Shown: one piece after another, positions 16,860-22,585 of the stretch | Layout: each line of letters begins with the position of its first letter | Position numbering within the stretch: the first letter of the stretch is position 1 | Origin: an uncultured Bacilli bacterium | GTDB taxonomy: Bacteria > Bacillota_I > Bacilli_A > RF39 > UBA660 | DNA: 64,000 bases | Reading direction: 5' to 3' | NCBI GenBank assembly: GCA_944371325.1 | Contig: CALVXO010000003.1 | Location: 1 to 64,000 of the forward strand | The notes under the pieces: generated by a model | What the model saw: only the letters and a program-made list of their open reading frames with translations | Database searches by the model: none | Told to the model about the DNA's origin: nothing | Position numbers and translations under genes: made by a program

Positions 16860-17822
16860 ATGTTTAAAAAAGCACTTCTTTTCCTTCTTCTATTTGTTCC
16901 TTCTGTTGCTTTAGCTTATTCAGACTACGTTTATGTTGGTGGTGAAAACATCGGTATTGAATTAAAAGCAGATGGTGTTTTAATAGTTGGTTTTTACAAA
17001 GTAAATGATTCTTATATTGCTAGTGAAGCTGGATTACAAATAGGTGATAGAATTATTTCAATTAATAATCAAGAAATTAATTCTATTTATGATTTAACCA
17101 ATCAAATTAAAGCAAGTAATGGTAATATAAATATTACTTATGTTAGAGATAATCAAACTAAGACAACTGCTTTAACTTTACCAAAAGAAAATGATACCTA
17201 TAAAACAGGTATTTATGTTAAAGATAGTATTACAGGTATAGGTACATTAACTTATGTAGATCCTAATACAAAATTATTTGGTGCATTAGGTCACGAAATA
17301 ATCGATAGTAGAACTGGTCAGATTTTAAATATTTCTGGTGGTAGTATATATGAATCAAAAGTTACTGATATTGAACCAAGTTCTAATGGTATACCGGGTG
17401 AAAAGAATGCTCAAATAGATACTGAAAGTATTAATGGTACTATTTTTGAAAATACTATAAAAGGTATATTTGGTAATTATACAAGCGATTTCGATGATTC
17501 AAAACTTTATAAAGTTGCTAAACCTGATGAAATAAAAAAAGGTAAAGCTAAAATATTAACTGTTTTAGAAGATGATGTAGTAAAAGAATATGAAATTGAA
17601 ATTACTAAAATAAGTAAAAATCAAGATACTAAAAATTTATCATTTAAGATAACAGATTCTGAATTACTTCAAAAAACAAATGGTATAGTGCAGGGGATGA
17701 GTGGATCACCTATTATTCAAGATGACTACATAATAGGAGCGGTTACCCATGTCGTTGTTGATAATCCACATAAAGGTTATGGTATATTTATTACTACAAT
17801 GTTAGAAGAAGGAGAAAACTAA
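16860..17822 (+). CDS. spoIVB: SpoIVB-like PDZ serine peptidase
   Basis: The 320-residue secreted protein has a signal peptide (ending near ALA). A PDZ domain follows at about 40-110 (ASEAGLQIGDRIISINNQEI), then a C-terminal S55 peptidase domain. Catalytic residues are visible as GALGHEIID (His) and VQGMSGSPII (Ser). In spore formers SpoIVB is secreted from the forespore and triggers pro-sigma-K processing in the mother cell. It is shorter than the Bacillus protein (about 425 residues), lacking part of the N-terminus. The usual neighbours (recN, spo0A) are absent. Whether this organism sporulates cannot be told from the window. Confidence 0.88.
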   Translation: MFKKALLFLLLFVPSVALAYSDYVYVGGENIGIELKADGVLIVGFYKVNDSYIASEAGLQIGDRIISINNQEINSIYDLTNQIKASNGNINITYVRDNQTKTTALTLPKENDTYKTGIYVKDSITGIGTLTYVDPNTKLFGALGHEIIDSRTGQILNISGGSIYESKVTDIEPSSNGIPGEKNAQIDTESINGTIFENTIKGIFGNYTSDFDDSKLYKVAKPDEIKKGKAKILTVLEDDVVKEYEIEITKISKNQDTKNLSFKITDSELLQKTNGIVQGMSGSPIIQDDYIIGAVTHVVVDNPHKGYGIFITTMLEEGEN

Positions 17823-17843
17823 GAGGATATTTCCTCTTTTTTT
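17820..17843 (+). terminator. Terminator after the spoIVB-like gene
   Basis: AAGAGGA and TTCCTCTT form a 7-bp stem with a short loop, followed by TTTTTTT. The hairpin begins at the stop codon. Confidence 0.75.
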
Positions 17844-18301: not shown

Positions 18302-18330
18302 GCTTGTTTTAAAAAAATAATATGTTATAA
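18302..18330 (+). promoter_or_regulatory. Promoter of the HipA-family kinase pair
   Basis: TTGTTT, a 16-base spacer and TATAAT precede the kinase ORF at 18349, with GGTG as the ribosome site. No inverted repeat that would suggest a HipB operator is evident. Confidence 0.5.
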
Positions 18331-18348
18331 TAAAATTGTGGTGAATTT

Positions 18349-19455
18349 ATGAGAACAAAGATAATAAAAGAAGAAATATATATGCCAGAACCAGTTGGGA
18401 AACAACCTAAATATTGGATTTGCGCTTATGGTAAGAGATTTTTATTTAAAATAGGTACTTTTAAAAGCGATAATACTCCAGTATATAATGATGTTTCCGA
18501 ATGTATGGCAGCAGACATAGCAAAACTTCTAGATATTCCAGTAGCTAAATATTATCTATGTGAAAATGATGGAGTAAAAGGCGTTTTAAGTTATGATTTT
18601 TTAGATAATGATTTAGAAGGCCCTAAAAAAGAAGAATTTGTTGATGGGGTAACTTTAATAAATTTAGTTGATCCTGGTTTTAAAAATACAAGTTTAGTTA
18701 ACCCTAAGACTCATCAATTATATACAGCTGAATTAGTTATTGAATCAGTTTTAAAATATAATTTAATGGCTGATGTTATTGATATGTTTGTATATGATTC
18801 ATTAATAGGAAATAGAGATAGAAATCCATCAAATTATGGAATAATTATTAATCATGAAAAAAATTCTATTAGATTAGCTCCACTTTATGATAATTGTACG
18901 TCATTAGGTGTTTCAATGGTAGATCATAGATTAAAAGCATGTATTGATGAAAATGGTAATATTATTGATGAAAAACAGTTAGATTTAGTTATCCATAAAC
19001 ATATAGTAGGTAAGATTACACTAGATAGATTTCATCAATATAAAGAAAAAAGAATCTGGGATAATTTAGAATCTAAAAGAATAATGGATTTAATAGATAG
19101 TAAGAAAAAAGAATTACTTGTTTTGTTAGAAGAAGGTAAAATTTCAAATAATGAATATCATAAAATTTTAAATAAAATTGGAGATACTTATCGTAAATAC
19201 GATGTTTCAACATTAGAATATCAGCAAATGATTAGCTATCTAACGCATTATTATCCAGAATATATAGAAGATATAATAGCTAAAATAGAACAAAATGTAA
19301 CTAGAGAAAATATTGATAAACTATTTGATTTTTATAAAGATGAATTACCAAAAGATCGATTAACTTTTGCAAAAGAATTAGTCCTTAGAAGAGCTAAATG
19401 GATTGTTGAATATTATAAAATCAATAAATATGAAAGTAGAGGTAAGTTATTATGA
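18349..19455 (+). CDS. HipA-family (HipT/CtkA-like) serine/threonine kinase
   Basis: The 368-residue protein has HipA-type kinase landmarks. RFLFKIGTF contains the ATP-anchoring Lys (about residue 30), and SECMAADIAKLLDIPVAKYYL is the early helix. Further on are the catalytic loop SLIGNRDRNPSNYG (Asp and Asn) and the metal-binding APLYDNCTSLG. It lacks the N-terminal HipA subdomain, which appears to be encoded by the next gene. HipA toxins phosphorylate aminoacyl-tRNA synthetases (GltX; TrpS for HipT). The substrate here is unknown. A helical C-terminal extension of about 100 residues is present. It overlaps the next gene by four bases (ATGA). Confidence 0.8.
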   Translation: MRTKIIKEEIYMPEPVGKQPKYWICAYGKRFLFKIGTFKSDNTPVYNDVSECMAADIAKLLDIPVAKYYLCENDGVKGVLSYDFLDNDLEGPKKEEFVDGVTLINLVDPGFKNTSLVNPKTHQLYTAELVIESVLKYNLMADVIDMFVYDSLIGNRDRNPSNYGIIINHEKNSIRLAPLYDNCTSLGVSMVDHRLKACIDENGNIIDEKQLDLVIHKHIVGKITLDRFHQYKEKRIWDNLESKRIMDLIDSKKKELLVLLEEGKISNNEYHKILNKIGDTYRKYDVSTLEYQQMISYLTHYYPEYIEDIIAKIEQNVTRENIDKLFDFYKDELPKDRLTFAKELVLRRAKWIVEYYKINKYESRGKLL

Positions 19456-19799
19456 ATGAAGTATATTTATTATGGGAATCTTATGAAACAAATAAACTAT
19501 TACCAATTGGTATTTTAAAACAAGTAAATGATAACTATTCATTTCAATATTTAAATGGTGCTAAACAAGCTATCGAACAAGGTTGCTTTCTACCTTTTCC
19601 TTATACTGAAAAAATATTATATTTTGATACTTTGCCTGACTTTTTTGAGCAAAGAATATTAAAAGGGGATTTTAATAGTCATAAATTCAATCTAAAAAAG
19701 GATAATAATAAATTAAATTATTTAGTTTATCGAGATTCTGTTAGAAATAGTGATAATTTTAAAATTGTAAGTGAAGAAAAATTTAATAAATTATTCTAA
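19452..19799 (+). CDS. HipA N-subdomain-like (HipS-type) partner protein
   Basis: The 115-residue product resembles the first subdomain of HipA: VYLLWESYETNKLLPIGILKQ followed by YSFQYLNGAKQAIEQG and FPYTEKILYFDTLPDFFEQRI. The last part matches the HipA N-lobe pattern ending in FFxxRIL. In the tripartite HipBST system a separate HipS of this kind neutralises the kinase HipT. Here the gene order is kinase first, then HipS-like, with ATGA coupling. The antitoxin role is inferred. Confidence 0.65.
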   Translation: MNEVYLLWESYETNKLLPIGILKQVNDNYSFQYLNGAKQAIEQGCFLPFPYTEKILYFDTLPDFFEQRILKGDFNSHKFNLKKDNNKLNYLVYRDSVRNSDNFKIVSEEKFNKLF

Positions 19800-19800
19800 A

Positions 19801-19827
19801 ACAAAAAGAGGTTTAATCCTCTTTTTA
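19801..19827 (+). terminator. Bidirectional terminator between the kinase pair and the DUF4044-like gene
   Basis: AAAAAGAGG, TTTAAT, CCTCTTTTT form a perfect 9-bp stem with A and T runs on both sides, so it can stop both the plus-strand operon and the short minus-strand gene. Confidence 0.8.
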
Positions 19828-19914
19828 TATCAAAACTAATGAAGCTACAGTAGATATAACCATGATTGCTAACATAACTATAGCCATTATTTTTCCTATT
19901 TTTTCGTTTTTCAC
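19825..19914 (-). CDS. DUF4044-like small membrane protein
   Basis: A 29-codon ORF starts at GTG (19914) after an AAGGTG ribosome site, with TATAAT about 20 bases upstream on the minus strand. The peptide begins KNEKIGKIMA and continues as a single hydrophobic helix with MLAIMVISTVASLVL. That fits the short, one-helix DUF4044 proteins of Bacillota. It is an isolated gene lying opposite the surrounding plus-strand genes. Function unknown. Confidence 0.65.
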   Translation of the reverse strand: MKNEKIGKIMAIVMLAIMVISTVASLVLI

Positions 19915-21814: not shown

Positions 21815-22585
21815 ATGAACAAATTAAATGAATTGTTACATGAACTTGGCATATCTAAAGTAAAATTAGCTAAATTTTTAGGGGTATCTAGACAAATGAT
21901 ATACAATTATTTGGAACTAGATAATATTAATAAATGGCCAAAAGATAAGAAAGTATTATTATTAAATTTATTAGGAGTAAAATCAGCTGAAGAAATTAAT
22001 AAAATAAAAATTACTACTGATTATATATATGAAGTAGATGATAGACTTAATTCTTTAGCAAAATCTAATGAAGGAGAAAATAATTTAGCATTAGACGGCT
22101 TAGGTAAAAAACAAAAAATATTATTACAAGATATTATAGAATTATTAAAAGAAAAAGTTGAAGACGAAAACGATAGTGATGGATATTATACATTATTGTA
22201 TTTGTATCATTATCTACAATCAATTGATAATTCTAAAGAATTGAAATATATTTTAGGTTATGTATCTAAAGCGGCTGGTTTTACAAAACCAATGGAGTTT
22301 GTTTTTGATGAAGAACAACAATTTACTTTTGAAAGTATTTTATTTTCAGCATTTTCATTGTATAATGGTGGTGGAGCTTCTAAAACTAAATTAGCAGCTT
22401 CACATGAAAGATTTGTAGCTCAAATTGAACATAAAATAGAAGAAAAGATGAGTAGAACAATGGAATTAAATACTGTTAAAGTTCAAGCTTTAAAAGAATT
22501 AGGTTATACTGAAATAAATGAAAATAATGCTACTGAAGTATTTGAAAAAATAGCAGAAATTCAATCAAGAAAAGTAACTAATTAA
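21815..22585 (+). CDS. Putative DNA-binding protein with N-terminal HTH
   Basis: The 256-residue protein begins with a helix-turn-helix-like segment (LLHELGISKVKLAKFLGVSRQMIYNYLEL, residues 7-35). A helical middle and a longer C-terminal helical region with HERFVAQIEHKIEEKMSRTMEL follow. The family is not recognised. It stands alone between a consensus promoter and a terminator, so it is probably well expressed. Regulatory function is inferred from the HTH only. Confidence 0.75.
   Translation: MNKLNELLHELGISKVKLAKFLGVSRQMIYNYLELDNINKWPKDKKVLLLNLLGVKSAEEINKIKITTDYIYEVDDRLNSLAKSNEGENNLALDGLGKKQKILLQDIIELLKEKVEDENDSDGYYTLLYLYHYLQSIDNSKELKYILGYVSKAAGFTKPMEFVFDEEQQFTFESILFSAFSLYNGGGASKTKLAASHERFVAQIEHKIEEKMSRTMELNTVKVQALKELGYTEINENNATEVFEKIAEIQSRKVTN

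Follow-up and report, generated by a model that had tools for sequence, protein, structure and literature searches.

The locus described here raises the question of how a HipA-type kinase could be controlled when no HipB-like DNA-binding protein is encoded beside it. In the window, that is, the whole 64,000-nucleotide stretch analysed from contig CALVXO010000003.1 of an uncultured gut Bacilli bacterium, two genes follow one another on the forward strand. Gene A (18349–19455, + strand) encodes a 368-residue Ser/Thr kinase of the HipA fold that lacks N-subdomain 1 and is the predicted toxin. Gene B (19452–19799, + strand), which overlaps A by the sequence ATGA and whose translation is coupled through it, encodes a 115-residue HipS-like protein, the predicted antitoxin. 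We consider the pair probably to be a two-gene, HipB-less toxin–antitoxin operon of the HipA type, with the hipJS architecture and derived from a hipIN-type module that lost its HIRAN domain.

At the sequence level, A matches the Pfam family HipA_C weakly but significantly (9.9e-8) and the PADLOC profile PDC-M03A strongly (2e-39). B reaches only 0.048 against Couple_hipA in Pfam; it matches PDC-M03B at 1.6e-14, covering the first 118 of 245 profile positions, and PADLOC already lists the two together as the candidate defence pair PDC-M03. Structures were predicted with a pLDDT of 81 for A and 80 for B, rows from phage and plasmid records having been left out. The model of A is matched best by CtkA (Z 26.8), followed by Legionella HipT (19.8), and can be laid over HipA residues 122–437 with Z 18–19. 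That of B is matched best by HipS from E. coli (Z 9.8) and Legionella (9.4) and also fits HipA residues 2–110, the first unrelated chain scoring 3.7. Thus A and B are the two parts of one HipA, the persistence kinase, split in the manner of HipT and HipS; on the structure models, which decide the matter, they tile HipA, A as residues 122–437 and B as residues 2–110. An earlier note, made from the letters of the DNA, had read the locus as a split HipA with the kinase first and an ATGA-coupled HipS-like gene second. Coordinates and models agree with it, and the expected fold of HipA subdomain 1, or HipS, is borne out for B. Foldseek alone gave no meaningful match for B, HipS lying outside its top rows, and the sequence profile of B returned four weak matches from the whole PDB, two of which are HipS or HipA N-domain proteins. 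The assignment of B to HipS is based on VIA-align, sequence profiles and adjacency.

Computation shows that the active site of A is intact. The catalytic loop GNRDRNPSNYG (18808–18840, + strand; residues 154–164) contains Asp157 and Asn162, and the metal-binding Tyr-Asp-Asn (18886–18894, + strand) contains Asp181 within the site LYDNCTS (residues 179–185), both as claimed before. These three residues, and likewise the catalytic Lys34, are invariant among the 30 kinases compared. An autophosphorylated serine near the kinase N-terminus, which the earlier note had proposed to look for, is absent: the Gly-rich loop EPVGKQPK (18388–18411, + strand; residues 14–21) contains neither Ser nor Thr, and VGKQPK is unchanged in the window and its six intact relatives, i.e. 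in seven genomes. The hipI kinases of the same family have GSR or GTR at this loop in the alignment. They are also about 84 residues shorter than A by the same comparison, and the intact copies of A in six other genomes measure 368 residues too, as against 279–321 in the published short Hip kinase families (PMC8262856). The extra length is in loops of the C-lobe. Much of it falls in one region (18907–19218, + strand; approximately residues 187–290, placed by alignment and model) that is modelled partly as a helical hairpin and partly with low confidence, and most of the remainder is found at about residues 311–330.

In E. coli, HipS reaches into the active site of HipT, which its Glu63 and Trp65 contact and block (PMC10627512). 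True hipBST HipS proteins of the same class keep the Glu and mostly a bulky residue (PEGW or PEGY); in B, the aligned positions are Lys71 and Asp73. Inhibition by B, if any, would thus proceed via other contacts, for which Phe74, invariant in eight sequences and situated in a low-confidence loop, is a candidate residue. B can be aligned with HipN across the whole linker and terminates at the onset of HIRAN. No HIRAN was matched in B by Pfam, and no relics of it were seen behind B, where the DNA is the same as in genomes lacking the pair. Five related B-type proteins do carry HIRAN (PF08797, 1e-12 to 1e-15), and one HIRAN-bearing relative matches PDC-M03B, a profile of the HipN type (HipS-like plus HIRAN), at 3.8e-68.

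The pair is organised as an operon of its own. A terminator of spoIVB (17821–17838, + strand) separates it from the upstream gene, and a putative vegetative (sigma-A) promoter, recognised by consensus match only, lies at 18304–18331 (+ strand; TTGTTT, a 16-nt spacer and TGTTATAAT, the -10 being at 18326–18331). The -10 hexamer TATAAT is kept in seven of the eight pair-bearing genomes (TACAAT in G010), and the scar left by the deletion in G009 retains it too. On the 3' side of B, a terminator hairpin (19803–19826, + strand; AAAAAGAGG TTTAAT CCTCTTTTT) folds at -10 kcal/mol with a z of -4.7 and is common to a convergent ORF of 29 residues. The latter, a membrane ORF at 19825–19914 (- strand; VKNEKIGKIMAIVMLAIMVISTVASLVLI), lies in DNA that is kept also in pair-less genomes. 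A sporulation operon is unsupported, given that spoIVB has its own terminator and the promoter of A looks vegetative.

That no helix-turn-helix gene belongs to the pair, as the earlier note held, stands. The 111-residue gene upstream was rejected as a third component: it has no Pfam match, occurs in only five of 18 genomes, two of which are now without the pair, and is found in two of the seven other pair-bearing genomes. The HTH gene at 21815 was rejected as a distant HipB, being a core gene that 19 of 20 genomes carry whether or not they have the pair. At the promoter of A, the search for an operator-like inverted repeat yielded only A+T-rich pairs of a chance-like kind. Control through DNA binding is thus not apparent at the locus, and we infer that a DNA-binding regulator encoded elsewhere is probably absent as well.

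Some observations on these neighbours are recorded here in their own right. The HTH protein (21815–22585, 256 residues) shares 100% identity with its counterparts in two further species of the genus, its neighbours being far less conserved. The 111-residue gene of the window is a relative of a 114-residue gene in a mobile-looking cassette of about 1.5 kb (L045:4341-5931 and L047:4129-5618), which comprises ORFs of 233 and 114 residues and a reverse one of 76. Two species share the cassette almost unchanged, although the genes that flank it differ clearly more between them. At its end, the final 112 bp of spoIVB are repeated as a second copy. The cassette seems to be a recently moved element that duplicated the 3' end of spoIVB.

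Eighteen genomes of the genus were examined, their records including Candidatus Faecisoma merdavium. The pair occupies a single chromosomal site, between spoIVB and spoIIM, in eight of them, 3' of spoIVB wherever the contigs show it, and in all eight the kinase comes first and a HipS-only gene second. The usual order after B is the convergent 29-residue ORF, a SpoIIM-like gene and mnmA, with other genes in G001 and G010. Seven genomes have the pair intact; in G010, B is intact and the kinase is frameshifted in an A-run, which may be an assembly error. No pair lies between spoIVB and spoIIM in another seven, one genome could not be called, and in G009 and G014 a deletion has removed both genes, leaving a scar in which codon ~28 of A is joined to codon ~107 of B. 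No genome of the genus was seen to have this kinase intact without B. The two scars and the state of G010, few as these genomes are, fit the leftovers expected of a toxin–antitoxin pair. In G014 (L135/L110), a transposase-like gene with CAGACTGTTGACAAATA-like inverted ends sits inside the terminator of the scar.

Selection on both genes is purifying, with a median dN/dS of 0.13 for A and 0.23 for B. The synonymous divergence of A resembles that of mnmA (0.57 vs 0.52) and spoIIM, with less for spoIVB. The pair is thus accessory but mostly vertically inherited, and its recent horizontal transfer is unsupported. Outside the genus, scans with narrow patterns found no close relatives in genome contigs, viral contigs, plasmids or phages. 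Within the wider kinase clade, the neighbourhood survey suggested by the earlier note found a HipS-like gene adjoining the kinase in all 22 loci examined. The loci surveyed are the eight of the genus, five hipIN loci from genus and family, L011, a C. difficile phage, two plasmid types, four viral contigs (one kinase of which reads as two ORFs) and two pairs with the HipS-like gene first. B has a single plasmid match, a gene that immediately follows a plasmid match of A.

How, then, does the pair relate to known Hip systems? Gerdes, Baerentsen and Brodersen described ten Hip gene organisations in 2021 (PMC8262856). Two of these are without HTH, namely hipIN, a kinase followed by HipN (HipS-like plus HIRAN), and hipJS, a kinase followed by HipS, and deletion of HIRAN from hipIN was suggested as the origin of hipJS (PMC8262856). 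The earlier note had rightly set the pair apart from hipBST, but it considered hipBST only; the gene order is published as hipJS and its HIRAN version as hipIN. The novelty that it implied is mostly mistaken, since kinase-first, HipB-less operons were already in print (PMC8262856) and in PADLOC as PDC-M03.

With hipJS, the pair shares a first-placed, clade XI-like kinase without N-subdomain 1, a HipS-only gene directly downstream and the lack of an HTH/HipB gene. It differs in the length of the kinase (368 residues vs the published 279–321) and in that the HipS of hipJS is reported to branch with hipBST HipS, whereas B, by profile, appears nearer to the HipN domain. With hipIN (PDC-M03), it has in common the gene order and a HipI-type kinase; indeed, no closer relatives were found than its kinase and the HipS-like half of HipN. 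HIRAN is missing from the pair, however, the kinase is about 84 residues longer and the partner has 115 residues vs ~225. The hipBST systems of E. coli O127 and Legionella likewise have a kinase core and a HipS-fold partner on separate proteins, but the gene order is reversed in the window, HipB is absent, the inhibitory Glu63/Trp65 are not kept in B and the Gly-rich loop of A has no SxS motif. In true hipBST loci of the class, the order is still B-S-T and an HTH gene is included. CtkA of H. pylori is the top structural match of A, yet by sequence profile it resembles the other kinase group, from which the tree separates A. Finally, hipL also has a kinase followed by a HipS-like domain, but as one fused protein with HIRAN rather than two genes without it.

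In a kinase tree of 48 rows, the pair kinases form one clade (100/100), which groups only with the hipIN kinases and two S-first kinases (84/92, a moderate support for the hipIN grouping, with long branches present) and is separate from the CtkA/HipG-like kinases. Profile comparison aligns B with the HipS-like half of HipN at E 7.6e-12 over 107 columns, and with the HipBST HipS of the same class at E 1.4e-4 over 66 columns. A tree constrained to unite B with HipBST HipS and HipA was not rejected at the 5% level (p 0.077). With both partners nearest to hipIN and HIRAN missing, descent from hipIN seems the best account of the pair. Loss from a hipIN ancestor would be the simplest reading of these sequences, in a direction that we infer. 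The pair is therefore a relative of the described hipJS order with a few unusual traits, a variant of a published kind.

Other Hip-type pairs were met along the way. The same genus has true hipIN pairs (L012, L028, L040 and L043), each with a HIRAN partner of 224–225 residues; those in L028 and L043 directly precede an rpsF-like gene, followed in L043 by ssb and rpsR. CtkA/HipG-like kinases occur in L019, L030, L060, L061, L062, L066 and L070, each followed by a partner of 257–301 residues that has a very weak HipS-like profile match in five of the seven (1e-3 to 1e-6). The S-first pairs (L041:1489-2609 in G010 and L021:1194-2283 in G023) have HipS-like genes of 98 and 102 residues overlapping a kinase of 275–276, and no HTH gene was seen upstream within the stretch available. 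This order is absent from the ten organisations of Gerdes 2021 (PMC8262856).

By analogy with HipBST, from which kinase activity, target and inhibition are transferred, free A would act as a Ser/Thr protein kinase on an essential target, probably part of the translation apparatus (an aminoacyl-tRNA synthetase, for example), whose phosphorylation would stop growth. B would sit on the kinase N-lobe where HipA has its N-subdomain 1 and keep A inactive. In view of the kinase-first order and the ATGA coupling, B would be translated from the mRNA of A immediately after it. As neither an HTH nor a HIRAN domain is present, control would be exerted by protein stoichiometry and the turnover of B, not by DNA binding. 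A bolder and rather doubtful extension is that the pair constitutes a minimal Hip system without HTH and HIRAN, wherein a HipS that has no Trp/Glu wedge controls a kinase without an autophosphorylation site by a different contact, and the choice of target or the sensing passed to the enlarged C-lobe once HIRAN had gone.

The toxin–antitoxin reading would be compatible with a role in anti-phage abortive infection, whereby a phage frees the kinase and the cell shuts down, the sensor being B or the enlarged C-lobe. Such a role has been proposed for hipIN, the HipA and HIRAN pair was counted as predicted phage defence in a 2025 paper (PMC11706625), and PADLOC lists the present pair as a defence candidate. 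Related hipIN pairs are located next to an integrase on a C. difficile phage, on viral contigs and inside a restriction-modification-like cluster on a Rhodococcus plasmid, and the pair site gains and loses other genes too. The pair, however, is surrounded by genes for housekeeping and sporulation, none of those adjoining being recognisable as a defence gene, HIRAN, the proposed DNA-end sensor, is missing, and phages, plasmids and viral contigs gave no close match; we regard a defence role as a tentative suggestion.

Somewhat less probable still, and in our view unlikely, is a domesticated regulatory kinase, for instance in sporulation, B being the cofactor that its N-lobe requires and no antitoxin, i.e. 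a HipA-like kinase in two pieces. The fixed site between spoIVB and the SpoIIM-like gene, a selection on A as strong as that on spoIVB, its mostly vertical inheritance (0.57 vs 0.52 for mnmA) and the missing HipS Trp65 in B would all suit such a kinase. Against this, the pair is absent or lost in nine of the 18 genomes, whereas spoIVB is always present, the promoter looks vegetative, and spoIVB has a terminator of its own. As for chance neighbours or the decayed remnants of a hipBST that lost hipB, the order and the missing HTH gene do differ from hipBST; but A and B group with hipIN, both are under purifying selection and true hipBST of the class runs B-S-T with an HTH gene, which makes this explanation highly improbable.

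In the literature searched, we found no hipIN or hipJS module that had been put to an experimental test. The pair lends support, from a clear lineage, to the published conjecture that kinase operons with HipS alone descend from hipIN operons that shed HIRAN. It also offers a small system for asking what HIRAN adds, and whether HipS can inhibit without the tryptophan wedge.
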